The position numbers and the translations under genes are program-made. Shown here piece after piece: positions 29,901 through 57,066 of a stretch of DNA of 64,000 nt. Under the pieces are notes generated by a model. The model was not told the DNA's origin. It ran no database searches and was given only the letters and a program-made list of their open reading frames with translations. The number at the start of each line of letters is the position of its first letter. Positions within the stretch are counted from its first letter, which is position 1. The stretch lies in assembly GCA_947561715.1 (NCBI GenBank), contig OX387200.1, forward strand, positions 1,552,501 to 1,616,500, given 5' to 3'. This DNA is from Ascidia mentula. Its lineage: Eukaryota > Chordata > Ascidiacea > Phlebobranchia > Ascidiidae.

Positions 29901-32900
29901 AAATTGTGATGTAATACGTTGCGCTGTATATTTTACTAGACCCAATGCCACAGCTTTCTGGAAACTTTACTGGGGTAGAAAAAACTGTGGTGGTTTTGAA
30001 GTGTTATGTTGCATCACATGTGTTTCCGCCTGTTACAAGCTACTCCATCTACATTGGAAATGTTGTTTATATACAACAGGTTTGTCATTTGAAAAAGACT
30101 ATTAACATTGCTAATATCAAAAACGTACAAACAAAAATGCTCTGTTTTTGGCAAAGAAATTACAAAACACTATCAGTAGCTATGGTATATTTTCTGTGTA
30201 AAATGTACCCCTAAACAGTATGTGGAAGGTCAACGAAGTCTGCTACTGAATTTATAATATGATACATGGCAGTGGCAAATCTTTTAAATTTAGATCCATG
30301 TAAGTTTATATTTGCAGGAATCACAAAACTTCAGTTTTCAACTGAAAAGAGAAATGAACAATCAAATGGTTCATTGTCAGGTCACCTCAAACTACACAAA
30401 GTTAAAAAGTACATCAGGAAATTCTTCTGACCATCGACTTACAGTATACTGTAAGTTAAAATGTTTTCTTATTATTGCACAATTTAGTTATATATAGCTA
30501 TCAAATAAAAATTGCGAGAAAGTAAGCAAACCGAATCAGCCCTAAGGGGCATTTATGTGTCAGGGTGTATTTGGTCTAACAAAAACTTGAATTATAGAAG
30601 TTAAATAGAGCAATTGCTATATTAAGCCATTAACAGCATTGAATAAAAATTTTTTTTAATCATTTTATTTTTCTAGTGTGACAAATTTCTGATGTAATTG
30701 ATTCTAAAACTGTTGATTGGGTGAACTTTTGCATAAATTCTACCAATAATTTGGTGAAGTTAAATGTTGCTATATGTAAAGAAAATGGACTTAATTTAAT
30801 CTTCTTAAAATTAGAATTCAGAGTAAATAGTTGCAATAGTTGAGTGGTTGGTCTTGCAGTTATAGCATTCACTTTCAGCAAGGAAAAATGGTGCGCTCAC
30901 CATATGCCACAGCCAGGTGGTTTGTAAAATGTGCCACAAACTATTATCAGGGCCATTCCATTACATTTTTACTTCCTCAACCATAGTCTTAAATCTTGCT
31001 AAAATATGTGTGTGGTGGTAAGAAACAGCAAAAGTCATGTGTTTCAAGTTCCTAACAAAACAGAAGTTGTCTGGCCATTGGCCACACGTTGTAAGTGGTC
31101 AAATTTTCATGCTATCATTGTTATATAACCTGTAATAGCTTCTTTATTTGGGCTTGGAGACTGTTAACATCTTTCAGTCAAAATTTCATTTTTTAGTAGT
31201 TGTGGTTAGTTAGAGTGGTAGGCTTGATAACACACCCAATTTTGAACATAACTTAGTTTTTTTGTTACTTTTGCATCATGTGGTTCAGTCTTCCTAGAAG
31301 CATGCCTATAGGAAGTGAGATTTTTATGGTTTTGCTCTGTCTGCCAGTTGTGTCAATATAGTGATCAAAGACAAAATAGTCAAAACAATATTTGGCATTG
31401 TTTGTCTGGCAAAGTCGCTGGTTTTATTCTAGTAAAAATGTTTTGCTTACTACAGTAAAAATTTCTGGTGTTTGGTTAGTTAAAAAGTTAAAAAAATAAA
31501 AAGTTAAAAATGTGTGGTTAATTTATGTTTCCTCAAACCTTAAGTTGCATTTCAATAGAGAAAGTCATCATTTAATGATAAAAAACAGCTTGAGTTAGTC
31601 AGTGATGTAAATCAATTGCATCAGAAAATCTACCATTTGGGGTCCATTTCAGGGTATGTTGATCATGTACATCACTTTTTTTAGAACCAACATAAATTCA
31701 AACCAGTATATTTTTTTCTGGTAAAACGTAACTGACCTTGTTTTAAGTTTACATTGTCATGGTAAAATGCTGTATGTTGCTACTGTGAATATTTAATAAA
31801 ATTGTGATTAATAAAAAAAATGTGATAATCAACCTTTGCCATTAATTTGCATATAGTTACGTTTTTTTTCTATGTATTTGGACAATAAGGACAAATGATA
31901 AATTTAAAGAAAGTTGGTGTAATCATCTAAATTACAAATTTTAATGATTCAACAAATGCGTTTTTTAGCCCCACTGATTTGTCTGTACTTGGTTTTAAAG
32001 ATTAGGTACACTTTTCTCATATATCTGATTTAAATATCAAATAAATCATCTTGCTCAAGATGATATAAATCATTTATGGTTACTATGTTTTTAACTACTC
32101 CTGAATAAACTTGTTTAGCCTTACAGAAATCCACCAAGTTTTTTTTTACAAACTGTCCACAAAAAAAAAGTTGTCACATTTTCACTGAAAAATATCAGTT
32201 TCTAAACTGTAAACATATTTGTTGGATGATTATTCTTACTTTAATAGAAAAATTTTACCATGTTTTAAACGTTTTATTAACTGTGATTTGCCGTTACTGT
32301 CAATTGAGTTAATTTTCCATTTCTGCTGTCTTGCCACACTTAGAAGAACCCATAAGCTGTGTTTAGAACAAGTTGGTGATTCCCTACCAAGTGAATCCGT
32401 ATTGGTTTCCTCAAATCCTCTTGCAACTAACCTGGCTTTTGGCCTTACTCCATTTTCATTTTCTTTTAATTTGCAAACCCACCGCACAGAGATGCACTTT
32501 TGATTTTTCTTAGGTACAACTTCATAAACACCATTTCTTTTCCAGCTTTCAAGTTCTTCTTCTTTAGCTGTTTAAAAAGAAACGTCACAATTATAAACTT
32601 CATCCACAACTTCAACTGTTTCTGGCATCACCGACAAAACCCATGTTGTTTTTCCAGCTAGATTGCCAGGAGTAATGAATTCAATGTTAAATGTATTTTC
32701 CGGTTGCCTTTCCAGCTCTACTCAACACTTTTGCAGTACAATCGACACCATCCAAATTGGAAAAACTTACATTCCTGTGTAAGAGGTTTTTACCCGATGG
32801 TCTGTTTCTGTTAAATGTTGGTTCTTGTGTTGACGTTTGTGGCTCAGGGTCTTCATCTTCACTTGAATCTTCTTTTTCGTCACCATCTCTGATAGGAGTC

Positions 32901-35900: not shown

Positions 35901-38900
35901 CCTAAAGCTATAGCATGTTATTCATTGTATTAATCTGTTTTCATGTCCTAAATGGTTTCAGCAGGTACAAGATATAAGTTTAAATTAGAAATACTTGTTT
36001 TTTGATATTGTAACTGCGTTACGTTAAAGTTTTTTTTTAATTTTTGTAATGTACAATGTTTGTGGAATGTAATGTTTGTCTCAAAGGACTTATTATATTT
36101 TTTTGTGGTTAAAAGGTGGTTAAAGAAATAAACTTTCAGAAGCTATTTTAAGTTTTGGCCAATGCTGATGAACAGCACGTCTTACATTTTAGATCCTCCA
36201 TCCATTTACAACATCTCTGCACAGGGTTCACAATCGCAAAACATAAATCAGTTCATATTTAATCAAAATGTCAATATAACTTTGACTTGCTTGGTTGATT
36301 CAAATCCCAACTCCACTTGTGTTTGGTTGTATGACAACTTCATTGGAAATGACTCTGTGTGCAATATTACCAAAACATTTAATAATTCGACAAATGCAAC
36401 CTGTGAAGCCTCCAATGGCATCGGCAACAAAACCACTAAAACCATAGAACTTGTGTCAGTCCCAATAGAGAGTAAGTTCGTCAGTTTACATCGAAATCCT
36501 TTCTTTTTGACATATTTTTTACACAGGGCAACCAATAATACTAGTTAATGGTGAAGCTGTTGAAAATAATAAAACACAACATTTTAACGAAAGCAATGCT
36601 GTCAATTTCACTTGTACGGAGGATTTTCAGCTTTACCTAAATACAACATTTAAGTGGAAAAAAGATGGAAGTATTGTTGCAAATGACAGCACATATAACT
36701 TTTATCATAAAAATATAACAAGAATTGACTCGGGTACATATACTTGCCACACTTCTGATGACTATAGAAAGTTTCAATCAAGTGTTGTCATCAATGTACA
36801 GTGTAAGTAGCTGCTCCGTGTATGTTGTAGTAAAAAAAAATCAAAACTGCACTGAAGTTTGTGCCAACCTTGATCTGAAAGCTGAGAGTCTTCATTAATG
36901 TAAATGTTTGAAACTTCAATTTGCTAAATATTAAGTGACTAATTTGTTTCATTTCATGCTGATGTAATAGAAAGCTAGCTTGAGATAAAAGCAGTAGATG
37001 GCACGAAAGTTCTTCCTATATTCTTTGAAACAGTTTCTTTACTGTCTGTGTTGCTGTTTTACCAATAGAGTCTGCAGGTTGTGTGGTCAGAACTTGTCAG
37101 TTGCTTTTTTTTACCTCTGGTTGAATTGATTTTTGATCAGTTAAAAATAAATATGTGTTTGGGAAAAAAAAGTATGAAAAATTGTGTATTTGAAGTCATC
37201 CAAACCTGGCAATGTGTTTTTGTTTTCAGTGAACTTTGCATGAATAGTTAAATGTAAAAACAAAACTGACCTTCCCTTGAGTGTTTCAAACTTTTATTTG
37301 TTATTATGAAAGGCTGCATTTGTTGCCATAAATCTTTATTCATATTAATGTAAAATTTACCCAACAATGTCATAAACATATAAAGTATCTCTCAATACCA
37401 TAACACATGCATGGCCACTTTTTTGTACATCTGATTGGTTTTTGGCTTCATTTTGCACAATCTGTTGGATTTATTAACTGGTGCTACATTTTTAACTGCT
37501 CTTGAAAACCTTGTTTAGTCCTGGCTTTCCTCTTGGTTATTTGAGTCTACCAGGTAATTTATATGTACAAAAAGAAAACTGTTGCATGTCTACTTAAAAT
37601 GTTACCATTTTGAAGCATGTTTGGAATTGTTAACTGTATTTCTTGTCTGGAATATTTGTTCTTACTTCAATAGACAAATGTAACTATTGAGTTTAAACAA
37701 TTTGGTTTTTGTGAGTATTGGTTGTTTGGATAATATTGGTTGTTTCAAGTTTCAAGACAACATGAGTATTAGGAATTAATAGGGAAAAAAACAGTAATAT
37801 GCGTATGGAACAAGCCATTTTACTTGTTGAGCTACTTAGTAAATTAAAAAATAATTTGTATACGTTCTAAACTCAGGAGATGGTTTAAAGCTGAACATTG
37901 TCATCATTGGGAATTACTATTTGCTTGTGAAACTAGTTCCAAAGAGAAAACAGTAAACAAGTTGCTTTATACAAAATATTTGTACTTGTTTTTTTGAGAA
38001 TTTTAACGTTTAAGTTTTGTATTTGATTTGAATATACAACATATGCTACTGGTAAAGCCTTCTGTGTATTTTATAAAATTTTCAATGTGATGAAAAATCA
38101 ATTTTATTTGAACTAAGTCACTAGGTTAACTGAGACAGCGAACAATGTTTTGTTCATTGTAAAAAGTGTCATAATTGTGGCTGCTTGATTTTCAAAATTT
38201 TATGGTATAGATCATTTGTAAAATTTATTGTTTGTTCAATTGGGCTTGTTATAATATTTTTTTATGTGGCTAAAAAAATAATGTTCAGGGGCTTTTTCGA
38301 TTTCTTGAAGCATGCTGATGAACAGCATGTCTTACATTTTAGATCCTCCATCCATTTACAACATTTCTGCATATGGTTCACAAAAGCAAGACATAAATCA
38401 GTTCATATTTTATCGAAATGTCACTATAACTTTGACTTGCTTGGTTGATTCAAATCCCACTTCCACTTGTGTTTGGTTGTATGACAACTTCATTGGAAAT
38501 GACTCTGTGTGCAATATTAGCAAAACATTTATTAATTCAACAAATGCAACCTGTGAAGCCTCCAATGGCATCGGCAACAAAACCACTAAAACCATAGAAC
38601 TTGTGTCAGTCCCAATAGAGAGTAAGTTCGTCAGTTTACATCGAAATCCTTTCTTTTTGACATATTTTTTACACAGGGCAACCAATAATACTAGTTAATG
38701 GTGAAGCTGTTGAAAATAATAAAACACAACATTTTAACGAAAGCAATGCTGTCAATTTCACTTGTACGGAGGATTTTCAGCTTTACCTAAATACAACATT
38801 TAAGTGGAAAAAAGATGGAAGTATTGTTGCAAATGACAGCACATATAACTTTTATCATAAAAATATAACAAGAATTGACTCGGGTACATATACTTGCAAC

Positions 38901-41900
38901 ACTTCTGATGACTATGGAAAGTTTCAATCAAGTGTTATCATCAATGTACAGTGTAAGTAGCTGCTCCGTGTATGTTGTAGTAAAAAAAAATCAAAACTGC
39001 ACTGAAGTTTGTGCCAACCTTGATCTTAAAGCTGAGAGTCTTCATTAATGTAAATGCAGGTTATGGTCAGAACTTTTCAGTTGCTTTTTTTACCTCTGGT
39101 AGAATTAATTTTTGGTCAGTTAAGAATAAACATGTGTTTAGGAATATAAAAAGTATGAAAAATTGTGTATTTGAAAAAATCCAAACCTGGCAATGTGTTT
39201 TTGTTTTCATTGGACTTGTGTTGCATAAATAGTTAAATGTTGGAGGTCATTGTGTCCAGCTTTTTTATTTTTAGCGAAATATTTTTTTATTCATTGTAGT
39301 TCAGTGATGTGAAATGCATTTATCAGTATATTGGCTGTTTTAAGTATAATGTTGTATTGGTTTTCTCTTTAAAATGTAGGCCGGTTGTAGCCACTATAAC
39401 CCTTGTATTGTGAAGTCACATCCCAATCCACATGTGTTTGGTCTTAAGATAATGTGAATCAAAGCAACAGTTTGTGTAGCTTAGATAGAAAATTTAATGA
39501 TTCAACAAATGTAACTTGTTTAGCATGCAAATGCTAATACTGCCAACAAAACTATTTCTATTGTGTCAGTTCCAACAATAAGTAAGTTAACTTTTGCGTA
39601 ACTTTTCACTTCAACTTGATTTTTGCATTTAAACATTCTCATTCAGGAGAACTAATGATAATAATTAATGGTGAAAAAGTTGACAACAACACAACCAAGC
39701 TTTTCAATGAAAGCACTGCTGTTACTTTTAATTGTTCTGTGGACTGACACAGTTACCTTCATACAACCTTAAAATAATCAAAAGGCAGAAAAGCTGTTGT
39801 GATTGGTGTTATCGGGTATAATGCTTTGTTAAGAAAATGACATTGGGACATATGTGTGAGAGTCTTCTGATCAGCTTGGAATTTTTCAAACACTGCTGTA
39901 CATAGATGTTTAGTACAAGTTGGTGCTATTGAATTGCACAATTCTCTTCTTAAGTTATCTATTTAAAATATTGCAGATTTTATTGGTTTTGAAAACTGTG
40001 TATTGGGTAAACCTAATGTATAGTGCTTTAAATGATTGTGTTCAAAGTATATCTTACTTAAACTTAAAGTCCTATCTTCTTATTCCAAATATTTTGTTAC
40101 ATTTCAAAAAGTTATGGGATTACCAATGAAAGATACTACTGAGTCTATAACAACTTAATGTAAATGGTTTACTTTTTCCATTTTAAATATTGCCATCCTC
40201 ATGTTAATGCCCTGAGTAAATTGTAGCATTTAGTCTTCATTACCTGGGTGGTTGCTTGTGATTTGTCAACATTTGCTTTCTTCCACAGTTTTACTGATAA
40301 AAATTTATGGATTAGGAAAACTACTGTTTACTCCCGGTGTACATTCATTGTGATACTAATTCCTCATGTTCATCACATATTCCAAAAAAGTGTAAATTCT
40401 ATCAAACGATTTCTTGAGTAAAGTTTGATAATATCTGAAAAATGACATTTGTCTTCTTCATAGTCTTATATGTTCATGTATATTGCTATATAGTTTACTT
40501 GTTGATAAACAAGTTTTCTCATGCAAAAATAAGCTGGAAATTTAACACATTGAAAAGAAGATATATGCCTGGAATGTGGCAGTAACGGTATTTTTATCAG
40601 AAAAAAATGTTTGTTGATCATTTTGCATTTGTTGTATTCAGACCCACCTTCAATTTCCAACATCACTGTACAAGGCTCATTTAAGAAGGTTGAAAACCAG
40701 TACATTATTCTTCGAAATAACAGTGTAACACTAAATTGCTTTGTGGAATCAAATCCCCAATCCACATGTGTTTGGTCCTATGATAACATGAATGAAAGCA
40801 ATGGTTCATGCAGCATAGATAGAAAATTTAATAATTCAACAAATGCAACTTGTGTAGCCACTAATGGCATTGGTAATTCTGACAACAAAACTATTTCAGT
40901 TGTGTCAGTTCCAACATTGAGTAAGTCTCGTTGTTTGAGATATTGTTCAGTTGAAGTAATCCGCATGTAAACATTACTAGGACAACCAAAGATAACAATT
41001 AATGGACAGACAGTTGATGAAAACACAACAAAGCTAGTCAACCAAAGTGATGATGTATTTCTTAATTGTACTGTGGCCTACCAGAGTTATCTGAATACCA
41101 CTTTTAATTGGACGAAAGATGTTGATGTTGTGGTGGATATTAAAAATTATGCTGACATTTCAATCCAAAATATTACAAAAAATGACAGTGGGACATTTGT
41201 GTGTGAGTCTTCTGATGAGTTTGGAACTTTTCAAACAATGGTGTACATTGATGTTCAGTGTAAGTTTGCACTATGAGATGTTGCATGTTGTATAATTCTC
41301 TTCAGAATTTAACTTGATTCAATATAGAAAATTGTTTATTTGGCAAACTTCAAATCAAATACTTCAAATAATTGTGTTCAAAGTAAAAGACTTCGTTTTG
41401 ATTCAATATTTTTTTACTTTCATTAGTTATAAGTTTGGCCTTCTTTAAGCAACATGAAGCATTTTCCTAAGGAGTTCCTTGACTTAGTGGTTGCTTACTG
41501 GTGTGATTTGTCCAGATTTGTACCCTTAATTATTGATGTGAAAATACTTCATGGAATCTATTGTCTGTTTACTTCTCTTGTCCCAATAAAAACACCACAT
41601 TAGTTGTGTAAATTAATGTTAATTCTGATTTATTATGTATGTCAAAATGGACCATGAAACTGTAGTTTTATTTGACAATCTGAAAATATAAAAGTTTGAT
41701 TATGTCTGAAAAATGACATGTGTCTTAAAAAATGGTGGTTTTTGATGTTTTGTCGATTAAATGTCAGTTGCAAAATAAATTAACAAGTTCTTTCATGCAA
41801 TAATGTTCTATAAGACAATCTTAAAAACTAAAGTTTAATTCTGTCAGAAAAATGATAGTTGTAATAAGTTTATAAACAAGAGCTGAATTGAACATGAATT

Positions 41901-44900
41901 TGTGTGTTTGTTGAAAAAACAAATTTGATACAAATTAACAAGTTCTCTCATGCAAAAATAATGTTTAAATTCCAAACTTCTAAATTGCAATTGAATGCAT
42001 TGTAAGATGAATGGGTACTACTTCATATTTTACAGGATTTTGTTTGTTGATTGTTTTTTGTTTGTTGTATTCAGATCCACCATCAATTCCCAACATCACT
42101 GTACATGGGTTATTTCAACAAACTGAAAACCAATATATTATTTTGCGAAACACAAGTATAAGGTTGAATTGCTCTGTGGATTCTAACCCCCAATCTAAAT
42201 GTGTTTGGTCATATGATAACTTAAATGGACGCAATGATTTATGCAGCATAGACAGAGAATTTATTAATTCAACAAATGCAACTTGTGAAGCCTTTAATGG
42301 CATCGGCAACAAAACCACTAAAACCATAGAACTTGTGTCAGTCCCAATAGAGAGTAAGTTAGTCAGTTTACATTGGAATTATTTTTTTTGACATATTTTT
42401 TACACAGGGCAACCAATAATACTAGTTAATGGTGAAGCTGTTGAAAATAATAAAACACAACATTTTAACGAAAGCAATGCTGTCAATTTCACTTGTACGG
42501 AGGATTTTCAGCTTTACCTAAATACAACATTTAAGTGGAAAAAAGATGGAATTATTGTTGCAAATGACAGCACATATAACTTTTATCATAAAAATATAAC
42601 AAGAATTGACTCGGGTATATATACTTGCAACACTTCTGATGACTATGGAAAGTTTCAATCAAGTGTTATCATCAATGTACAGTGTAAGTAGCTGCTCCGT
42701 GTATGTTGTAGTAAAAAAAAATCAAAACTGCACTGAAGTTTGTGCCAACCTTGATCTGAAAGCTGAGAGTCTTCATTAATGTAAATGTTTGAAACTTCAA
42801 TTTGCTAAATATTAAGTGACTAATTTGTTTCATTTCATGCTGATGTAATAGAAAGCTAGCTTGAGATAAAAGCTGTATATTGCACAAAAGTTCTTCGTGT
42901 TGTCTTTGAAACAGTTTCTTTACTGTCTGTGTTATTGTTTTCCATAGGAGTCTGCAGGTTATGGTCAGAACTTTTCAGTTGCTTTTTTTACCTCTGGTAG
43001 AATTAATTTTTGGTCAGTTAAGAATAAACATGTGTTTAGGAATATAAAAAGTATGAAAAATTGTGTATTTGAAAAAATCCAAACCTGGCAATGTGTTTTT
43101 GTTTTCATTGGACTTGTGTTGCATAAATAGTTAAATGTTGGAGGTCATTGTGTCCAGCTTTTTTATTTTTAGCGAGATATGTTTTTATTCATTGTAGTTC
43201 AGTGATGTGAAATGCATTTATCAGTATATTGGCTGTTTTAAGTATAATGTTGTATTGGTTTTCTCTTTAAAATGTAGGCCGGTTGTAGCCACTATAACCC
43301 TTGTATTGTGAAGTCACATCCCAATCCACATGTGTTTGGTCTTAAGATAATGTGAATCAAAGCAACAGTTTGTGTAGCTTAGATAGAAAATTTAATGATT
43401 CAACAAATGGAACTTGATTAGCATACAATGACATTGCTAATACTGCCAACAAAACTATTTCTATTGTGTCAGTTCCAACAATAAGTAAGTTAACTTTTGC
43501 GTAACTTTTCACTTCAACTTGATTTTTGCATTTAAACATTCTCATTCAGGAGAACTAATGATAATAATTAATGGTGAAAAAGTTGACAACAACACAACCA
43601 AGCTTTTCAATGAAAGCACTGCTGTTACTTTTAATTGTTCTGTGGACTGACACAGTTACCTTCATACAACCTTGAAATAATCAAAAGACAGAAAAGCTGT
43701 TGAGATTGGTGTTATCGGGTATAATGCTTTGTTAAGAAAATGACATTGGGACATATGTGTGCGAGTCTTCTGATCAGCTTGGAATTTTTCAAACACTGCT
43801 GTACATAGATGTTTAGTACAAGTTGGTGCTATTGAATTGCACAATTCTCTTCTTAAGTTATCTATTTAAAATATTGCAGATTTTATTGGTTTTGAAAACT
43901 GTGTATTGGGTAAACCTAATGTATAGTGCTTTAAATGATTGTGTTCAAAGTATATCTTACTTAAACTTAAAGTCCTATCTTCTTATTCCAAATATTTTGT
44001 TACATTTCAAAAAGTTATGGGATTACCAATGAAAGATACTACTGAGTCTATAACAACTTAATGTAAATGGTTTACTTTTTCCATTTTAAATATTGCCATC
44101 CTCATGTTAATGCCCTGAGTAAATTGTAGCATTTAGTCTTCATTACCTGGGTGGTCGCTTGTGATTTGTCAACATTTGCTTTCTTCCACAGTTTTACTGA
44201 TAAAACTTTATGGATTAGGAAAACTACTGTTTACTCCCGGTGTACATTCATTGTGATACTAATTCCTCATGTTCATCACATATTCCAAAAAAGTGTAAAT
44301 TCTATCAAACGATTTCTTGAGTAAAGTTTGATAATATCTGAAAAATGACATTTGTCTTCTTCATAGTCTTATATGTTCATGTATATTGCTATATAGTTTA
44401 CTTGTTGATAAACAAGTTTTCTCATGCAAAAATAAGCTGGAAATTTAACACATTGAAAAGAAGATATATGCCTGGAATGTGGCAGTAACGGTATTTTTAT
44501 CAGAAAAAAATGTTTGTTGATCATTTTGCATTTGTTGTATTCAGACCCACCTTCAATTTCCAACATCACTGTACAGGGCTCATTTAAGAAGGTTGAAAAC
44601 CAGTACATTATTCTTCGAAATAACAGTGTAACACTAAATTGCTTTGTGGAATCAAATCCCCAATCCACATGTGTTTGGTCCTATGATAACATGAATGAAA
44701 GCAATGGTTCATGCAGCATAGATAGAAAATTTAATAATTCAACAAATGCAACTTGTGAAGCCACTAATGGCATTGGTAATTCTGACAACAAAACTATTTC
44801 AATTGTGTCAGTTCCAACATGGAGTAAGTCTCGTTGTTTGAGATATTGTTCAGTTGAAGTAATCCGCATGTAAACATTACTAGGACAACCAAAGATAACA

Positions 44901-47900
44901 ATTAATGGACAGACAGTTGATGAAAACACAACAAAGCTAGTCAACCAAAGTGATGTTGTATTTTTAAATTGTACTGTGGCCTACCAGAGTTATCTGAATA
45001 CCACTTTTAAATGGACAAAAGATGGTGATGATGTTGTGGTGGACATTAAAAATGCTGGCATTTCATTCAAAAATGTTGCAAAAAATGACAGTGGTACATA
45101 TGTGTGCGAGTCTTCTGATCAGTTCGGAACTTCTCAAACAATGGTGCACATTGATGTTCAGTGTAAGTTGGCGCTATGAGATATTGCATGATACATAATT
45201 ACCTGAAATTTGGCCTATACATTATAGAAAATTGTTCATTGGTGCAATTTTTTGTCAAATACTATAAATGACTGTGTTCAAAGCAAAAGATTATCTTTTA
45301 TTTTATAACTTTTTTCAATTTGAAAACATTTAATGATTTTGGATTCCAATCGGAAAAGTTTTTTAGGCTAATTTCATAAGGTTGCGTTTTTTTGTATTTT
45401 AAACTATGCCAAAGCAAAATGCAGCATTTTGCTCAGGAGTATTTTGGCTTGGTGATTGCTTGTTGATGTGATTTCTGCTCTAAATTATTCACATGAAAAT
45501 GTTACCATGCAACCAGAATCATAGGCGTCGATTCCTATCTTCTAGAGAAGGCCAGCCTAACCTGCAAAATACCCAGGTTAGGCGGCCTACCCTGGATTTG
45601 GAAAGTCTCCTTCGTTCTTTTAGCTGATATACCCGCAAAGGCAACCATTATCTCGCATCGTGCGATAGTTAAATGCTCGCTTTGTGTTTCACTGTTTAAA
45701 TGTGTGGCGTGCATTTGTCTAATCGTCACGGATTGGAACAGTTTATTCATTAAAGTGATGTACCGAAGCTTCGGATTCCAGATTTCATTTACTGAATCAG
45801 CGATAATTTTCAATACTATGAAAAATGATAGTATTTAGCGTGTCTTTTCTGTGTAATTGTGTATCACACAAGACACAATCTTACAAACTGTGCTAAAACC
45901 AACGAATAAACGACGCCTTGTGATAGTTCAGTGACGTAACATTTTCGTAATGTAAGTCTTGGCATATACTGTCGCTGAAGACATATCCTTTGAGAAACGG
46001 GAGTCTAGTGCTTGGTATTGAATTTGCTCATGTTTTGCTCACGCACGGTACAAGATTGGTAATACATTTGGAAACTACCAATGACGGCCAAGATAACCTA
46101 TAAATCTAAACACGAATTTAGACGATCTGGCGATAACGTATAACGAATTTAGACGATTCGGTTCACCACCAAAAAGCACTAAGGCCGTAAATTGACTCGG
46201 CACTCGCAGGACCAGTCCAATACGAATACGTCTCAGAACTTGTGGGCCGAGTAATGATTTTACTTGGCCTAATCTGGAAACTTAAGAAATCGACGCCTAT
46301 GACCAGAATTAAAAATGTTTATTTCTCATGTCCTCATAAAAAAGCTCATTATTTGTATAAATTAATGTTAATTCCGATTTTTCATGTCTTTCAAAGTGGA
46401 TCGTAAAAGTGTGGTTTGGGAGAAAAATCTTAAAACGTAAATTTTAATGATATCTGATAAATGAAAAATACAAATTTGACGTTTGATGTATATAGGTTTA
46501 AATATCAATTTAAGTTGCTGTTGGAGTTAACAAGTTCTCTTATGCAAAAATAAAGTTCAAATTCAATATATTTAAAATGCTATTACATGCTTCTTATATA
46601 AATATGTTACTTCTGGATATTTTACAGATTTTTTTTTATATTTGTTCATTCTTCAATGATTGTTGCATTCAGATCCACCTTCAATTTCAAGTATCACTGT
46701 ACAGGGCTCATTTCAGCAAATTGAAAACCAGTACATTATTCTTCGAAACACCAGTATAACCCTAAATTGCTCTGTGGAATCAAATCCCTTGTCTATATGT
46801 GTTTGGTCTTATGATAACTTGAATGAAAGCAATGGTTCATGCAGCTTAGTTAGAAAATTTAATGATTCAACAAATGCAACTTGTGTAGCCACTAATGGCA
46901 TTGGTAATTCTGACAACAAAACTATTTCAGTTGTGTCAGTTCCAACATTGAGTAAGTCTCGTTGTTTGAGATAATGTTCAGTTGAAGTAATCCGCATGTA
47001 AACATTACTAGGACAACCAAAGATAACAATTAATGGACAGACAGTTGATGAAAACACAACAGAGCCATTCAAACAAAATGATGATGTATTTCTTAATTGT
47101 ATTGTGGCCTACCAGAATTATCTGAATACGACTTTTAAATGGGCAAAATATGTTGACGTTGCGAGGGATATTAAAAATTATGCTGGCATTTCATTTGAAA
47201 GTATAACAAAAAATGACAGTGGGACATATGTGTGCGAGTCTTCCGATCAGTTTGGAACTTTTCAAACAATGGTGTACATTGATGTTCAGTGTAAGTTTGC
47301 ACTATGAGATGTTGCATGCTGTATAATTTTCTTCAGAATTTAACTTTATTCAATATAGAAAATTGTTAATTGGTTAAACTTCATGTCAAATACTTTAAAT
47401 GATTGTGTTCAAAGTAAAACACTTTCTTAATTAAATATTTTTTTCACCTTGATTAGTTATAAATTTGGCCTTCTTTGCAGCATTTTGCAAAAGGTGTTTC
47501 TTGGCTTAGGGGTTGCTTACTGATGTGATTTGTCAAGATTTGTACCCTTAATTATTGATGTGAAAAAACTACATGTATCAGGAATACTATTGTCTGTTTA
47601 CTTCTCTTATCCCGATAAAAAGGACATTAGTTATGTAAATTAATGTTAATTGTGATCTATTATGTCTGTCAAAATGGACCATGAAACTGTAGTATTAATA
47701 GACAATCTTAAAATATAAAGTTTGATTATGTCTGAAAAATGACATATGTCATAAAAACAACGGTGACGTTTTCATGTTTTATCGATTTAAATGTCAGTGT
47801 AAGTTGCAATATAAATTAACAAGTTCTTTCATGCAATAATGTTGTATAAGACAATCTTGAAACTAAAATTTAATTCTTTCTGAAAAAGGACATTTGTGAT

Positions 47901-50900
47901 AAGTTTATAAACAAGAGCTGAATTGAACATGAATTTGTGTGTTTGTTAAAAAAAAAAAATTTGATACAAATTAACAAGTTCTCTCATGCAAAAATAATGT
48001 TCAAATTCCAAACTTATAAATTGCAATCAAATGCATTTTGAAATGGGTATAACTACATATTTCACAGAATTTTGCTTGTTGATTGTTTTTTGTTTGTTGT
48101 ATTCAGATCCACCATCAATTTCAACCCACATCACACCACAGGGGTTATTTCAACAAACTGAAAACCAATATATTATTTTGCGAAACATAAGTATAAGCTT
48201 AAATTGCTCTGTGGATTCAAATCCCCCATCCAAATGTGTTTGGTCATATGATAACTTGAATGAACACAACAATTCATGCAGCATAAGCAGAGTATTTAGT
48301 AATTCAACAAATGCAACTTGTCAAGCCACTAATGGCATTGGTAATTCTACCAGTCCAACCATTTCAATTGTTTCAGTTCCAACATTGAGTAAGTTAACTT
48401 TGAAGTTAGTTTTTGAATTTATACATTTTTTCTTTTAAAACATTCTTATTCAGGACAACCAAAGATAACAGTTAATGGTGAAACAGTTGATAACAATACA
48501 ACAAAGCTTCTCAATGAAAGCAATGCTGTTAAATTTAAATGCACTGTTGATTACCAAAGTTATCTTGGTACAATCTTTAAATGGACAAAAGATGGAATTG
48601 ATGTTGAGATAGATGTTAATAATGATAGCATTTTGCCAAAAAATGTTACACCAAATGACACTGGTACATATGTATGCAAGTCTTCTGATGAGTTTGGAAG
48701 TTTTCAAACAAGGGTTAACATTGATGTTCAGTGTAAGTTTGCACCATAGAAAGTTTGCATGTGGTGTTAATTTGAAATAGTTTGTCCATTCAAATCTGCA
48801 TGTTTCCATATTTCTCTTAAAAACAGAGTGTTGTTTGACATGTTGCGTAAATAATTTGTTTTGGAAGCTATTGCAAAATGTAGAATTTGGTAGAAATCTT
48901 AACCGACCCAAATTTGTTCTGTTTAAGATTAACTACACCTTTGAGTGTATTAATAGAATACCTTAATTGTGCTATGTATGCTATCTGGTGAATGATTTAA
49001 TTATGAATAATTTTGTTTTGTGTTTTATGTCTTGCTTAACCTGTTAATAACTGGGTGTTCAGTAACGGTTTCTATTGGTTGCATTGGTTCTATTCCGAAA
49101 ACAAGTTCTTATTTTTTGCAACCTATTTCCTGTATTCCCAGCATAACTGTAGACATTTCATCGTAGAACAGGTCTTTTGTAAAATTATATCCCTTACATT
49201 TAAACCTTTACGCACATCATGCAGCAAATACCTGGGTTTTAATCTTAGTAATATAATGTAATAACAAGTATGAGAAATGCTTCCAACTATGTGTGTAGCA
49301 TGTGGAAAGTTTCATCGCACTTGTGACATAGCAACTAATAATCTATTAGGATGATTTTTCTTCTGTTTTTGTGATTATTATCAGTTTCATAAATCTGATA
49401 ATGTAAAATGCCACCCGAAGATGTCACCTAACATTAAAATTTACAAAAATACCATTACTTGCTTTACAATCAGATAAAGCTAGAAACTCTTTTGGTACAA
49501 GTAGCAGATTTTTTTCCCAATAAGCAATTTGTGCATCAAAGCCAATTAATGATTGAGCACTTAGCACAATGCTAATAGTTACCTCTAGACATTTTATAAA
49601 TCATGTGTGAATTTAAATTTGGTTTACACTATTTCAAATGATAATTGTATATATTTTGTAATTGTGCTAAATGTTGGCATTTCGTAGACCAACCATACAC
49701 TGTTGGCAATGTGAACTGCCAACCAAACCAACCATGTGATATTACTGTGTATTCAAATCCTCCACCTTATGCCCCTGTTTTAATATCACCAGGTTTGTAA
49801 TGCTTGAATACTTGCCATATCTTAACATTTGATTTATAAATATATTTTTTAGGAGGTGGAAATGAAACTTCTTCATGGTTGATAAGTACTCCACCAGTTT
49901 ACACATATCAAATTAAGGTAAATTATGTTGTTAAACAGTAGGGAATCATTTATTTGTTATTGTAAGTTACTTCAAATATAGAATAGTATTAAAGGAATGT
50001 TTATCTTAAATCCCATAATCATGGGCGTATCCAGGAGCGATCCGGAACCCCGTTTTGTGAAATATTTTGTTCTGTTTTGATAGCTAAACAAACGCCACTG
50101 TATTTTTTTGTCAAAATCTCTGTGAAAACCAGATATTTTCTTTAACGTTGACCTAAAAACCCAAACAGGGGGCATTGTTACCGAACACTTGGCATTGTTA
50201 CCAAACATGTTGTATTGTTAAGAAACAAATATAATTTTTCGTCAGTCTAAGGACGAAATGCCGTTTTTTAGTGGTCATGTTGTTGTAATGGCGAGCGGTT
50301 TACTTGTGTATAAAGTCAATTAGTTTAGTTGGTTAACACGTTGCCAATATTACACATGTTGAAAACATTTACTTTTGTTGATGCCAGTTACCAATACTTT
50401 TTTACATATTTCAAGCCTTTCTTTAAAAGCAGTAGTTATAAAACTACGGCGCAAGCACTACCACAAAAACTCGCATCAAGTGTTCCACAACGTTACGCGA
50501 TTGTGCAAGCCAGGAAGCCACCGTTTATGTGACAATTTGCACCAACACTGGCGTTTGTATTTTGTAACTTTTGACCACATTTAACCTTAGTTTTCACCTG
50601 AAAATCGGGAAATTCCCAAGAAGTTAGACCCACCCCCCCCATTAAAAAATCCTGGATACGCCTATGCCCATAATGGTTGCTTTAGTTGATGCCAGTTACC
50701 AATACTTGTTTAATATGAAATGTGTCCATAAGGTTGACTTAAATAAAAGATGTAGGAAAATGCGATAAAAATACAATTTAGAATATAATCCATTAAAAGA
50801 AACCATTGTTCTCTATGGGCATTAGCCAAGTGTCAAAGTAAAAATATTGTGCATTTGTGGCATTAACAAACTATGCACAGTGAGTTCTTTGTAATCCTAG

Positions 50901-52728
50901 TTTAGTTATTTTTTTGTAGAAGCCTGTAGGAACCTACACTTTGCATGTTACAAATGCAATTGGAATAGGCTCGATTACAATAACAATACCTGCAATCACT
51001 ACCATCCAACTGGGAATGATTATTGGAATATCTGTAGCAGCTGTTTTTGTAATTGCATTAATCATTCTGGTTATTGTATTGCATAAAAGAAAATCCAAAA
51101 GTAAGTTTTGCTTTACGCAATGCTAGACCATTGGTTCCAAAGGTAGGAAGCTACTAATTGAGTTATGATTTAATGACAGTTCTGATACTTTCTTGAAAGT
51201 GCATCGTTTTTTGTTGTTTACTTCAGTAATTTACTACATACTTGTAGTTATGACGAATTGTGTGCAAAGATTTACATATCATAAGAATATGTCAAATGTA
51301 AAGATATTTTTGAATGACAATGCATGCTGATGCAAAATTGTTGTACAACCGTGCAATATCAACACATAAGACCTGATGAAACTAATTTATAGTTTAAATT
51401 TATTGTGCTGTAGAATCTGAGAGAGAGGAAAGAGACAACCCGATATATGGGAGTTCCCCCAACAATGGGACAGATGATGCTCAGGTTAAAAAGAAAAACA
51501 AAAAATCCAAGGAGAAAGAAATGACAGTGAATGTCGCTTACCAATCTGCATCCTCTCCTGAGGCTATTGAGGACGCCTATGCTTCTGTTAGCAAAGGTAT
51601 GTGATGAATGCTTTTTTCTTTTATGGTTATGAAAATTTTTTACTGTTTTGTCCTTTTTATGAAACTGTTTTTTTAAAACTTTTTTTTAACTGCTAACAAA
51701 GGGTTGAAAGGTCTTGTATTGTGATCAAACACAAACTTTGATAGCTTAATTTAAAGTAATTAGAAATTAACCTATTTAATATTAATAATCCCCAGTGGTT
51801 TTTGAGAAAATTAATTTTATTTTGGTTCTTCTGCACAAATCATTTAAAATAATTTCATCCTTAAAAAAGGTTATCAGGCGTTGCACTTTTAGGTGAGAAG
51901 GAAGTTAAAATGAATATCTTGTATGGATCAGCTGGTGCTCATTCATCACAAACTGAAGATGCATATGCTGAAGTGGATAAAGGAAAGAAAAAGAAAAGTA
52001 GTTACATAATAAAAATATACTTGCATGCATAGCTTTACATGGCATATTTCAATCAATAGATAAAAGCAAAGAAATGAAAGTAAATGTTGCTTATGTTCCA
52101 ACCCCTGAAAATCCTGATGCCCCTGAAGAAGCATATGCTGAAGTGAACAAAGCCAAGAAAAACAAGGGCAAGAAAGGTGCCATAAACTTTGTGTAAGGCT
52201 GAAATACGTCTTTCTTAATACATCCTCGGTCAATTTTAGAGAAAGAGATGAAGGAGAATATTCTGTATGGTTCCTCTCCAGCTGGAGGAAGTGGAGAAGA
52301 TGCCTATGCAGAGGTGGATAAAAGGAAGAAAAAGAATGCTGGTTTGTTGTGTATAAGCAAATTTCTTTGCTGTTTTCTTACTGTGCATTATATTGACAGG
52401 CCAAAAGCAGGGTGAACACAGTGGTGGTGCAACCTACTCTGTGGTTAAGCCTAAAAAGAAGAAGAAAGAATCAACATCCCCACCCCAAAGTCCCAGTAAG
52501 CATTATTTTTTATTACCGTATGACACCAAATACTGATTTGAAAGCACTACTAGTTACATAGTGTGTTGTGTTTGATTTTTCTTACCTTAGAAATTTTCAC
52601 ATATTTCTGTTTAGATGATGACCCATATGCTGAAGTTGATCTTCATGGTCAGGTGTGTATTTTGAATGTTTTCAAGTGTATAGAGATACATAATAAGATG
52701 ACATTTTGTGTGTAAACAGGAAGATTGA
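26894..52728 (+). CDS. Gene 2: multi-Ig, CCP-bearing transmembrane receptor with repeated tyrosine-motif tail
   Basis: Thirty-one exons: 26894-26987, 27798-27925, 28274-28344, 28784-28911, 29341-29532, 29940-30079, 30318-30450, 36193-36471, 36527-36802, 38343-38621, 38677-38952, 40642-40920, 40981-41259, 42075-42353, 42408-42683, 44545-44823, 44884-45162, 46673-46951, 47012-47290, 48107-48388, 48454-48732, 49688-49792, 49853-49917, 50920-51100, 51414-51596, 51893-51997, 52060-52176, 52240-52341, 52400-52495, 52615-52652, 52720-52728. Total 5787 nt, exactly 1928 codons plus stop, with matching phases at every junction. Order: signal peptide, N-terminal domain to residue 140, CCP to 204, split Ig to 295, seven Ig pairs to about 1595, membrane-proximal domain, helix near 1683-1707, signalling tail. 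It should act at the cell surface as an adhesion or recognition receptor coupled to tyrosine phosphorylation. Ligand unknown. Confidence 0.88.
27798..28911 (+). CDS. Gene 2 exons 2-4: unrecognised N-terminal domain
   Basis: Three exons (27798-27925, 28274-28344, 28784-28911) joined in phases 1, 0, 2 and 1. About 109 residues with FSTFCGSS, NLQCSVLNN and NISCTNTSG, many Asn sequons and alternating hydrophobic strands (VVFIFFNVL). No known family recognised; a divergent beta-sandwich is possible. Phase use differs from the rest of the ectodomain, so it is an older or separately acquired module. Confidence 0.75.
29341..29532 (+). CDS. Gene 2 exon 5: CCP/sushi domain
   Basis: A 64-residue phase 1-1 exon with DCPND, QFKCPAGQ, NTTCQNDATW and GLECW. 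The four cysteines and the tryptophan after the third match a CCP. It is the only CCP in gene 2 and a domain-level link to gene 1. Confidence 0.8.
29940..30450 (+). CDS. Gene 2 exons 6-7: Ig-like domain split by a phase 0 intron
   Basis: Exons 29940-30079 and 30318-30450 encode about 91 residues with VVVLKCYVAS and MVHCQVTSNY as the two Ig cysteines. An intron between them is in phase 0, unlike the downstream one-exon Ig domains. It ends with HRLTVY, leading to the YPP start of the first Ig pair. Confidence 0.75.
32236..35099 (-). mobile_element. Broken Ty1/Copia retrotransposon fossil, antisense in gene 2 intron 7
   Basis: On the minus strand the parts come in Copia order: Gag-like (about 34440-35099), aspartic protease-like with SAIIDTACTKTVCG (34021-34386), integrase with VLSDNGREFNN (33024-33847), then only the beginning of the reverse transcriptase with PKARLVARGFEE (32236-32487). 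Integrase before reverse transcriptase separates it from Gypsy types. The rest of the polymerase is absent and no LTRs are recognised. It carries several breaks and is a dead, moderately old insertion that does not disturb the host splice sites. Confidence 0.85.
36193..36802 (+). CDS. Gene 2 Ig pair 1 (exons 8-9)
   Basis: Exon A (36193-36471) encodes a 93-residue Ig-like domain starting PPSIYNIS, with LTCLVDSNP, TCVWLYDN, SVCNI and NATCEASNGIG: two Ig cysteines, the core Trp and a likely second disulfide. Exon B (36527-36802) encodes an I-set domain with NFTCTED, FKWKKDG and IDSGTYTCHTS. Both exons are phase 1-1. Together 185 residues. Confidence 0.9.
38343..38952 (+). CDS. Gene 2 Ig pair 2 (exons 10-11)
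   Basis: Exons 38343-38621 and 38677-38952, nearly identical to pair 1 at a distance of exactly 2150 bp, including the short intron. Exon B has IDSGTYTCNTSDDYGK where pair 1 has CHTSDDYRK, so pair 2 keeps the common form. A very recent tandem copy or a gene-conversion product. Confidence 0.9.
39380..39914 (+). pseudogene. Decayed Ig pair 3 (relic exons)
   Basis: A-type relic 39380-39581 (STCVW-like and the VSVPTI end recognisable) and B-type relic 39647-39914. The A relic has lost its first third. The B relic reads GTGGACTGACACAG where intact copies read GTGGCCTACCAGAG, giving a stop, and its donor is TAGTACAAGT instead of CAGTGTAAGT. It must be skipped for gene 2 to be read through. Confidence 0.85.
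40642..41259 (+). CDS. Gene 2 Ig pair 4 (exons 12-13)
   Basis: Exon A 40642-40920 starts PPSISNITVQGSF with TLNCFVESNP, TCVWSYDN, GSCSIDR and NATCVATNG. Exon B 40981-41259 has FLNCTVAYQ, FNWTKDV and NDSGTFVCESSDEFG. Both are 93 residues, phase 1-1. It differs from the pair 1/2 subtype mainly in exon B. Confidence 0.9.
42075..42683 (+). CDS. Gene 2 Ig pair 5 (exons 14-15), with a chimeric A exon
   Basis: Exon A 42075-42353 begins like the A exon of pair 9 (ITVHGLFQQTENQYIILRN) but ends like pairs 1 and 2 (GNKTTKTIELVSVPIE); the switch lies near 42290. Exon B 42408-42683 is of the pair 1/2 type, with IDSGIYTCNTSDDYGK. The exon looks like the product of unequal crossing-over or gene conversion. 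Confidence 0.9.
43278..43817 (+). pseudogene. Decayed Ig pair 6 (copy of relic pair 3)
   Basis: A-type relic 43278-43484 and B-type relic 43550-43817. It shares the same lesions as pair 3 (GTGGACTGACACAG and the lost donor at TAGTACAAGT), so the decay came before the block duplication. The A relic differs slightly (GGAACTTGATTAGCATAC). Confidence 0.85.
44545..45162 (+). CDS. Gene 2 Ig pair 7 (exons 16-17)
   Basis: Exons 44545-44823 and 44884-45162. The A exon is almost identical to pair 4 (NATCEATNG instead of NATCVATNG; VPTW instead of VPTL). The B exon has diverged more (KWTKDGDDVVVDIKNAG and FKNVAKNDSGTYVCESSDQ). Offset from pair 4 is 3903 bp. Confidence 0.9.
45530..46301. mobile_element. 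772-bp hAT-like MITE between Ig pairs 7 and 8
   Basis: Perfect 8-bp target duplication ACCAGAAT at 45522-45529 and 46302-46309. Terminal inverted repeats start CATAGGCGTCGATT at both ends. An 8-bp duplication is characteristic of hAT elements. No transposase inside; a short direct repeat, ACGAATTTAGACGAT, occurs near 46112 and 46144. Confidence 0.9.
46673..47290 (+). CDS. Gene 2 Ig pair 8 (exons 18-19)
   Basis: Exon A 46673-46951: PPSISSITVQGSFQQ, TLNCSVESNP, ICVWSYDN, GSCSLVR, NATCVATNG. Exon B 47012-47290: FLNCIVAYQ, FKWAKYV, NDSGTYVCESSDQFG. It is a slightly diverged relative of pair 4. Confidence 0.9.
48107..48732 (+). CDS. Gene 2 Ig pair 9 (exons 20-21)
   Basis: Exon A 48107-48388 is one codon longer than its sisters (PPSISTHITPQGLFQQ) with LNCSVDSNP, KCVWSYDN, NSCSISR and NATCQATNG. 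Exon B 48454-48732 has KFKCTVDYQ, FKWTKDGID and NDTGTYVCKSSDEFG. It is the membrane-proximal pair and the most distinct, consistent with an older edge copy. Confidence 0.9.
49688..51100 (+). CDS. Gene 2 exons 22-24: membrane-proximal domain and transmembrane helix
   Basis: Exons 49688-49792, 49853-49917 and 50920-51100. The first two encode a degenerate Ig-like region (VNCQPNQPCDITVYSNPPP, then WLISTPPVYTYQIK). Exon 24 continues with PVGTYTLHVTNAIGIG, resembling the last strands of an Ig domain, then a helix containing LGMIIGISVAAVFVIALIIL and a basic stop-transfer HKRKSK. The helix has no charged residues. Confidence 0.85.
50020..50666. mobile_element. 647-bp hAT-like MITE in gene 2 intron 23
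   Basis: Perfect 8-bp target duplication CCCATAAT at 50012-50019 and 50667-50674. Inverted ends are CATGGGCGTATCCAGGA and CATAGGCGTATCCAGGA. The terminal CATAGGCGT is shared with the MITE at 45.5 kb. Inside, CATTGTTACCAAACATGT with flanking sequence is also found near 59.5 and 60.1 kb. Confidence 0.92.
51414..51596 (+). CDS. Gene 2 exon 25: tail module 1
   Basis: A 61-residue phase 1-1 exon just inside the membrane. It has NPIYGSS (an NPxY motif, as bound by PTB domains), a lysine-rich stretch KKKNKKSKEKE, then NVAYQSA and, 13 residues later, DAYASV (YxxV, a possible SH2 site when phosphorylated). It appears to be a fusion of an extra NPIY segment with one standard module. Confidence 0.85.
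51893..51997 (+). CDS. Gene 2 exon 26: tail module 2
   Basis: A 35-residue phase 1-1 exon with NILYGSA and, 14 residues after that tyrosine, DAYAEV, then a KGKKKK basic cluster. Same plan as modules 1, 3 and 4. Confidence 0.85.
52060..52176 (+). CDS. Gene 2 exon 27: tail module 3
   Basis: A 39-residue phase 1-1 exon with KEMKVNVAYVPT, then EAYAEV 14 residues after the first tyrosine, and a basic end KAKKNKGKK. The NVAY type groups it with module 1. Confidence 0.85.
52240..52341 (+). CDS. Gene 2 exon 28: tail module 4
   Basis: A 34-residue phase 1-1 exon with KEMKENILYGSS, DAYAEV 13 residues on, and KRKKKN. The NILYGS type groups it with module 2, so modules 1-2 and 3-4 look like a duplicated two-exon unit. 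Confidence 0.85.
52400..52495 (+). CDS. Gene 2 exon 29: single-tyrosine tail module
   Basis: A 32-residue phase 1-1 exon with GGATYSVVKPKKKKKES and a Ser/Pro end TSPPQSP. It has one YxxV-type motif and the strongest lysine cluster. The TYSVV stretch is like, but not equal to, an ITSM (TxYxxV). Confidence 0.8.
52615..52728 (+). CDS. Gene 2 exons 30-31: C-terminal YAEV motif
   Basis: Exon 30 (52615-52652) encodes NDDPYAEVDLHGQ and ends in phase 0 at GTGTGT. Exon 31 begins at 52720 after TGTGTGTAAACAG and adds only two codons before TGA at 52726-52728. If the last intron were retained, the frame would run on with a different tail end; the splice is the better reading but is the least secure junction of the gene. 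Confidence 0.7.
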
Positions 52729-56690: not shown

Positions 56691-57066
56691 AAAAGCTTTT
56701 CATGCCTTAAAGGTCATTCGTTAATTGAAGTTTCGCATCCGCGTATAGTTGATAAATTAGACTTGGGTTCTTTGAACGCGAATTTCGGTCTCACTGCGCT
56801 TCCTCTTTCCGTGTATGACGTCACGCGTTTGTAGGAGGTACAAACACAGTCGCCACATAAGGTGATGCACAAAACATCACCCATATTAAACCGTGGCCAG
56901 TAAAACTTACGTATGTTTGGATTAGGACATCTCCAAACATTTTATATCTCTAATATAGCAATCATCAAACACGAAGGTGTGACTTTTTTGAAAAAGGCAC
57001 TCTGCACCATGAAGGGAATAAAGCTCCCTTGCAATGACAAAATGTTTCTACCAACCAAAAACAACG
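56691..57066 (+). repeat. Segmental repeat, copy 1 (copy 2 at 59685-60058)
   Basis: Runs from AAAAGCTTTTCATGCC to ACCAAAAACAACG and is closely similar to the later copy, in the same orientation. The open frames here (for example 56475-56834) cross the copy boundary and show no domain, so I do not call a gene. Confidence 0.85.

Follow-up and report, generated by a model that had tools for sequence, protein, structure and literature searches.

Known receptors and their comparison with the Ascidia locus

The closest described counterparts of the gene studied here are the fester co-receptors (FcoR) of Botryllus schlosseri, which belong to the fuhc allorecognition locus and are reported to be 520-610 amino acids in size (PMC12065747). 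Their tails are described as carrying immunoreceptor tyrosine-based inhibitory motifs (ITIMs), half immunoreceptor tyrosine-based activation motifs (hemITAMs; ITAM for the complete motif) as well as a core motif, YxxI/L/V, whose function is unknown; in half of the core motifs an acidic residue lies upstream (PMC12065747). According to the same report, homologues of Src, Syk, SHP-1 and SHIP are expressed in Botryllus, and ascidians are without LAT and SLP-76 (PMC12065747). Here we analysed a window of 64,000 nucleotides of Ascidia mentula (assembly GCA_947561715.1, contig OX387200.1, positions 1,552,501 to 1,616,500), which contains a receptor gene, hereafter W, with a long tail of repeated, exon-encoded tyrosine modules. 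The contig, C67 below, is chromosome 4 of this species; positions in kb or Mb refer to C67 and other coordinates to the window. A mitochondrial COX1 contig of this genome uses TGA for Trp, and a normal COX1 sequence results when AGA/AGG are translated as Gly; its translated open frame contains 18 AGR codons, two of which precede the likely start. This is the genetic code of ascidian mitochondria. A and B denote paralogues with the modular tail, and p1, p2, m1-m3 and D further relatives.

FcoR and W are alike in being type I proteins with sushi and Ig domains, one transmembrane (TM) segment and a long tail of tyrosine motifs, and in belonging to a large clustered multigene family whose tails vary between members (PMC12065747). 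FcoR are further characterised by an N-terminal variable-type Ig domain, by two C2-type Ig domains that precede the TM segment, and by a three-TM fester partner encoded beside them. At the Ascidia locus, we found a sushi domain in the family, a single TM segment followed by a long tail with six core motifs, and a clustered family with varied tails. Unlike Botryllus FcoR, however, W occurs in a solitary phlebobranch beside 29 array members with YxN tails, and it has seven extra Ig pairs and a tail in which modules with NxxY are repeated. Its [DE][DE]xYxxV motif differs from the FcoR hemITAM/core motif at two positions, -1 with Ala instead of Gly and +3 with Val instead of Leu (PMC12065747). On balance, we lean towards W being an FcoR-like receptor, set beside the Botryllus FcoR by description and not by sequence, whose tail changed from YxN to multi-copy core-motif docking. 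Among the matches listed in literature searches, no title on tandem, multiple or repeated hemITAMs concerned ascidian receptors, and none on receptors of A. mentula named the species.

The hemITAM receptors Dectin-1, CLEC-2 and DNGR-1, and tetherin, have a single Yxx-hydrophobic site resembling the W motifs, and in Dectin-1 and DNGR-1 acidic residues are described just upstream of the hemITAM tyrosine, as in W (PMC12669754, PMC5932189, PMC4161388). W is unlike these receptors in having Ala or Pro at -1, Val at +3, five copies of the motif, type I topology and an unrelated ectodomain; the EDAY/EEAY motif with Val at +3 is hemITAM-like without being a hemITAM. KIR, LILR and SIRP are vertebrate ITIM/ITAM paired receptors. 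As in these families, the C67 cluster combines similar ectodomains with differing tails, and VTYAEV of A and B fits the ITIM; in contrast, the W tail has neither ITIM nor ITAM, and the likeness carries no evidence of common ancestry. In LAT-type adaptors, several docking sites occur on one tail; YxN is a Grb2-type and NPxY a PTB-type site. The array tails with two to five YxN sites, and those of p1 and p2 with NPVYVNV/NPVYENI and SEYENV, are LAT-like, but the sites are inside receptors and not in a separate adaptor, and the W tail has no YxN. Finally, the tails of CED-1, Draper and MEGF10 combine NPxY and YxxL sites that are not known to be repeated as exon modules, and share with W the mixture of NPxY and Yxx-hydrophobic sites, whereas the ectodomain differs.

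Exons and motifs of the modular tail

The tail of W is encoded by seven exons, numbered E25-E31, on the + strand immediately 3' of the TM exon. E25 (51414..51596, 183 nt) contains two units, a shortened one with NPIY (NPIYGSSPNNGTDDAQVKKKNKK) and a full one (NVAY...EDAYASV) with a weak basic stretch; it is homologous in A and B and, more weakly, in the short-tailed p1 and p2. The next three exons each encode a module followed by a lysine cluster, namely E26 (51893..51997, 105 nt; NILY...TEDAYAEV), E27 (52060..52176, 117 nt; NVAY...PEEAYAEV) and E28 (52240..52341, 102 nt; NILY...GEDAYAEV). E29 (52400..52495, 96 nt; GGATYSVV and a lysine cluster) and E30 (52615..52652; NDDPYAEV) look like half-modules, and E31 (52720..52728) supplies the last coding codons (E, D and stop), an equivalent split last exon being present in A and B. 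All seven exons have an AG acceptor and the first six a GT donor, while the lengths of E25-E29 are all multiples of three, with phase 1-1 joins from the TM exon onward. By comparative criteria, the modular tail exons of W are real. A first-pass annotation of the window, made from the letters alone, had proposed a receptor tail of exons 25-31 with phase 1-1 modules, and the consensus borders, the phases and the conservation in A and B bear it out.

The spliced tail comprises 216 residues, including 11 Tyr, 38 Lys, 3 Arg and 38 Asp/Glu, with no Phe, Trp or Cys. The tyrosines occur in the order NPIY, NVAY, DAYASV, NILY, DAYAEV, NVAY, EAYAEV, NILY, DAYAEV, TYSVV and PYAEV, and all 11 belong to two classes, NxxY (five) and YxxV (six). 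The first-pass count of 11, including two further YxxV and one NPIY, was thus correct; that the first tyrosine of each module lies in a PTB-like NxxY context was absent from it and is read here from the motif. Only one of the NxxY sites is NPxY, four of the five (NVAY/NILY) being without Pro. In five of the six YxxV sites, positions -3 and -2 are both acidic ([DE][DE]xYxxV), and position -1 is Ala in the four modules and Pro in E30. When the residues of the W tail were shuffled 20,000 times, neither five or more [DE][DE]xYxx[VIL] sites nor the placement of all 11 tyrosines in the two classes occurred, and five or more NxxY and six or more YxxV/I/L sites each arose in only five.

Around the second tyrosine (residues -6 to +3), the modules of E25-E28 have a net charge of -3 or -4; over residues +4 to +16 it is +5 in E26, E27 and E28 and only +1 in E25, and a strong +5 cluster also follows the single tyrosine of E29. 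The lysine cluster that had been assigned to all four modules is hence present in three and weak in E25. Likewise, the 13-14 residues given between NxxY and (D/E)AYA hold as the offset from tyrosine to tyrosine, not as the gap, which is about 10 residues.

Searches of the W tail against Pfam, NCBIfam and PDB revealed no relative, the best matches being at chance level, and three weak matches of the tail query in the genome (C70 and C2; expectation value (E) above 5) were dismissed as chance. With the patterns in general use, [SIVL]xYxx[IVL] for ITIM and Yxx[LI]x(6-12)Yxx[LI] for ITAM, the W tail has no ITIM and no ITAM, the latter also when Val is allowed. The strict hemITAM pattern [DE][DE]GYxxL is equally absent from it, compared with five occurrences of the relaxed [DE][DE]xYxx[VIL]. 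YxN is absent from the tails of W, A and B.

Paralogues, selection and probable gene conversion

The modular tail is also present in A (C67 ~755.0-753.9 kb, minus strand) and B (803.6-804.9 kb, plus strand), which lie 0.80-0.85 Mb from W. Both keep the tail exons and most tyrosines, which supports the W exons independently. Between W and A, the tail shows a synonymous divergence (dS) of 1.02 and a ratio of nonsynonymous to synonymous divergence (dN/dS) of 0.27; the ratio is 0.29 between W and B at a dS of about 1, and 0.28 between A and B at a dS of 0.18. The modular tail is under purifying selection. Within three residues of a tyrosine the W-A ratio is 0.20, against 0.30 elsewhere; this order is reversed between A and B (0.34 near tyrosines, 0.25 elsewhere), and therefore an extra constraint on the motifs is not shown at short distance. 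Nine of the 11 tyrosine columns are common to W, A and B (10 of 11 in W and A, 9 of 11 in W and B), and all six YxxV columns keep the tyrosine in the three genes. The site in E26 is an ITIM in A and B (DVTYAEV/VTYAEV) where W has EDAYAEV. Although the tails match, the TM exons of A and B are only ~31% identical to that of W.

E27 of W is 95-96% identical to that of A or B over 108-109 nt, whereas E25, E26, E28 and E29 are 73-84% identical; E30 reaches 93-95%, over 38-45 nt only. Synonymous divergence is 0.20-0.21 in E27, 0.60-0.74 in E25, E26, E28 and E29, and 0.31 in E30-31 (8 sites), and E27 differs from all remaining exons in Fisher's exact test (p = 1.2e-4 and 3.5e-4, from rounded counts). 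The high-identity tract ends near the exon borders and does not leave the exon (52060-52176 in W, against C67 754.5 kb and 804.2 kb). These features suggest that E27 was likely gene-converted between receptors ~0.8 Mb apart, in which case the overall dS would understate the age of the other exons. Homogenisation within W as the source of the likeness was rejected in favour of exchange with A/B on the basis of the identity and the synonymous comparison. The intron between E27 and E28 is missing in A (754.5-754.3 kb), where they form one open exon, and is present in B and W.

The receptor array and the origin of the modules

The genome searches covered 79 contigs with 195.8 Mb, compared with 95 scaffolds and 197.0 Mb in the genome note of the species (PMC11109543). 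With the sushi exon as query, 67 matches were obtained at E<=0.001. This is a minimum for the number of exons, and the matches are not all shown to be genes; 60 lay at C67 0.72-2.16 Mb, one elsewhere on C67 and six on other contigs. Of 12 sushi exons of the family, seven gave a match to Pfam Sushi (PF00084) with E<=1, the best being 1e-6, and the family sushi profile matched the C1r CCP at E 0.013. In the 150 kb around A and B, members with sushi, split C2-like Ig and TM exons were found, some with an identified V-like exon. The W tail very probably belongs to this sushi/immunoglobulin superfamily (IgSF) receptor family of the C67 cluster.

With the W TM exon as query, 29 close relatives (63-78% identical) were found on the + strand of C67 at 0.93-1.545 Mb, together with six weak relatives on the opposite strand, so that W is the 30th and last of the tandem IgSF/sushi receptors found. 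The YxN tail of the next gene upstream of W, used as a second query, matched 29 places on C67, with one further weak match on C71. Each of the 29 array TM matches is paired with a short YxN tail, whose start lies 239-271 bp downstream of that of the TM match, and each of these tails ends in an in-frame stop. They contain two (1 gene), three (11), four (14) or five (3) YxN motifs, typically VYENT, TYENT, EYQNV and YQNT, and none of the 29 has NxxY, ITIM or [DE][DE]xYxx[VIL]. An array-type tail as an alternative exon of W was not supported, as the window gave no match at E<=0.1 among the best candidates scored. The YxN tails of the array (C67 0.93-1.545 Mb) are LAT/Grb2-like, in a lineage reported to be without LAT and SLP-76. 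The cluster contains at least four tail types; another type is found in m1-m3 (C67 732-743 kb), with YMN/YVN/YIN and a C-terminal YEIP or YETP.

The p1 and p2 genes (821-830 kb) have one tail exon with NPVYVNV or NPVYENI, and SEYENV. The p1 tail aligns with E25 at E 0.002-0.004, as searched against a small local open reading frame (ORF) set, and with that of p2 at 3e-11; p1, p2 and m2 have two YxN each. The alignment of the one-exon p1/p2 tail with E25 points to a one-exon NPxY and YxN tail as the probable beginning of the exon that multiplied in W, A and B, with the YxN sites (Asn at +2) probably lost in the process. Amplification by exon duplication, as the first-pass annotation had proposed, is supported by the comparison, and since all module exons are common to W, A and B, it predates the three genes. 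The alternation NVAY/NILY/NVAY/NILY suggests the doubling of a two-exon unit. A distant gene, D (2.047 Mb), has NPLY...TYSEV and NPLY...TYAQV modules, with three NPLY in the examined part of its tail. Most simply, W can be read as an array-type receptor to which a tail like those of A and B became joined, tail exchange in the opposite direction being possible.

The same annotation had called the modules a distinct multi-copy platform fitting neither ITIM nor ITAM. Multi-copy tyrosine modules under purifying selection were indeed found; "neither ITIM nor ITAM" is literally correct for W yet misleading, given the resemblance of the motif to the FcoR hemITAM/core motif (PMC12065747) and the ITIM at E26 in A and B. 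A broader point lies beyond the window which that annotation had covered: within an array of 30 receptors, one has a different tail.

Proposed function and alternatives

The W tail is probably a phosphotyrosine docking tail of some kind. As to the kind, we propose modulatory or inhibitory docking, as the counterpart of the 29 receptors with YxN (Grb2-type) sites, and give this reading a probability of roughly 0.45. In such a mechanism, clustering of the receptor would lead Src-family kinases to phosphorylate those tyrosines that are preceded by a pair of acidic residues. The [DE][DE]xpYAxV sites would then be bound by SH2 proteins, either phosphatases of the SHP/SHIP type or tandem-SH2 proteins of the Syk type, and the NxxY sites by PTB proteins, and the lysine clusters would keep each module near the membrane. 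As E25-E29 are symmetric, splicing could set the number of modules. A precedent is the Botryllus FcoR with its ITIM, hemITAM and core motifs, in a species in which Src, Syk, SHP-1 and SHIP homologues are expressed (PMC12065747). DNGR-1 has EEEI before its hemITAM tyrosine and is reported to recruit SHIP1 (PMC12669754).

Several points weigh against modulatory or inhibitory docking. The W tail itself has no ITIM, and the inhibitory lean therefore rests on the paralogues A and B; the ITIM pattern also occurs once each in p1 and p2 (SEYENV) and in m2 (SEYMNI), so that VTYAEV of A and B is by itself a weak pointer. A and B have three [DE][DE]xYxxV sites each, against five in W. B has lost the NPxY tyrosine (NQLC) and A and B are without the first tyrosine (NxxY) of E28, which means that not every site is indispensable. 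The N-terminal V and C2 domains are weakly supported by their sequences. Finally, the acidic residues before YxxV fit activation through Syk, as in a hemITAM, equally well.

This last point leads to the somewhat unlikely alternative of an activating, multi-copy hemITAM-like tail, in which each Src-phosphorylated [DE][DE]xYAxV would offer one half-site to the paired SH2 domains of Syk, and one chain, or two clustered ones, would seat several Syk molecules. The five [DE][DE]xYxxV sites of W are in keeping with it, as are the DEDG before the hemITAM tyrosine of Dectin-1 and the reported coupling of hemITAMs to Syk (PMC12669754, PMC5932189), but the strict hemITAM pattern is absent from W, the residue at -1 being Ala (four modules) or Pro (E30), and in CLEC-2 the change of Gly to Ala is reported to impair signalling (PMC12669754). 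In a study of tetherin, hemITAMs are described as single YXX-hydrophobic sites and YDYCRV of tetherin as a noncanonical one, but the tyrosine with the YxxV context is not the essential one there (PMC4161388). Monomorphic Botryllus FcoR pairs with hemITAM or core motifs are described, and FcoR1, with the core motif, is read as activating (PMC12065747). Against this stands the ITIM that A and B keep at the place of E26.

That the NxxY sites carry the main function is improbable: in this case an adhesion receptor of great length would be tethered by PTB/FERM proteins or taken up through endocytic adaptors, with acidic lipids as the ligands of the lysine clusters. Candidates of the PTB/FERM kind are talin, kindlin, Dab and Shc. 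W has five NxxY including one NPxY, an ectodomain expanded to seven Ig pairs and, in D, a relative with three NPLY in the part of the tail examined; four of the five W sites, however, are NVAY/NILY without Pro, and while the tyrosine is kept in all six YxxV columns, NPxY was lost in B and one NxxY in A/B. Repeat expansion without a signalling role, or mis-joined exons, would suit the low-complexity lysine-rich repeats, the ectodomain still duplicating (2.4-kb repeat, 96%) and the apparent conversion of E27 between genes, but is very improbable in view of the dN/dS values (0.27-0.29 at a dS of about 1), the conservation of splice phases, the retention of tyrosines across three genes and the absence of any W tyrosine outside the two classes.

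Returning to modulatory or inhibitory docking, W resembles a natural switch of signalling within a family of recognition receptors, and the locus is a natural experiment in which related TM exons of one array are followed by two unrelated tails. If the comparison with FcoR is correct, FcoR-like receptor complexes exist in a solitary sea squirt too, and the use of such receptors is not confined to colony fusion. A self-fertilisation block in A. mentula is cited by PMC7344649, and is one possible use of W-type receptors besides immunity. The W tail is also a test case for the Botryllus FcoR core tyrosine motif of unknown function, because in W the motif is repeated, exon-encoded and under selection. 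More speculatively, and with rather long odds, ascidian receptors may themselves carry the scaffold step of immune-receptor signalling, in animals reported to be without LAT and SLP-76: the array would do so with LAT-like YxN, one member would have swapped to a splice-tunable ladder of PTB sites and core motifs that reverses or re-routes the signal, and gene conversion of a single exon would keep the modules matched 0.8 Mb apart.

Ectodomain and other features of the window

All exons of the W ectodomain are on the + strand. An exon at 28725..28914, probably the last one of a V-like domain at the N-terminus, has an ORF end (...TANFSVKG) like that of the pre-sushi exon of the paralogues; two related V-like exons of paralogues matched nothing in Pfam and nothing convincingly in PDB, and the V fold is a candidate only. 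The sushi (CCP) exon (29340..29534) was recognised by family comparison, the W copy itself having no Pfam match. The two halves of a C2-like Ig domain were found with family hidden Markov models (HMMs), the N-half in an ORF at 29915..30211 (E 6e-14) and the C-half at 30324..30452 (E 4e-22). When joined, they gave a weak C2-set_2 match in W (E 0.005, below the cut-off), compared with E 0.054 in one of two paralogues and no Ig match in the other.

Seven Ig-exon pairs (14 open Ig exons) and two broken pairs follow at 36132..48746, and include an internal duplication. Six of the 14 exons were scanned with Pfam: all three of the second type exceed the cut-off of an Ig model, and all three of the first type match Ig models only below the cut-off. 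The stretches 39055-41420 and 42953-45321 form the 2.4-kb (2,376-nt) duplication, with 96% identity and remnants of a broken Ig pair in each copy, and this repeat shows that the number of Ig pairs is still changing. The TM exon (50920..51100) encodes the end of a membrane-proximal Ig-like domain and a single TM segment (IIGISVAAVFVIALIILVI), its only hydrophobic segment; this second, membrane-proximal Ig-like domain was recognised by eye only.

The sushi-to-TM span of W, with its seven Ig-exon pairs, is 21.6 kb. In 25 of the 29 other array genes, the nearest upstream sushi match lies 3.6-8.4 kb before the TM exon; in the remaining four it lies 15.6-38.9 kb before, and a sushi exon closer to the TM exon may have escaped the search there. 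The nearest upstream neighbour of W has one Ig pair in the stretch examined (from contig position 1,542,501), and its sushi exon is 1.5 kb further up.

Elsewhere in the window, a distant sushi-like exon on the minus strand at ~12836 (family HMM, E ~1e-10) perhaps belongs to another receptor gene. Two ORFs at 56904-57257 and 59719-60084 have the stretch KHEGVTFLKKALCTMKGIKLPCNDKMFLPTKN in common and may be a repeat or a pair of pseudogenes.

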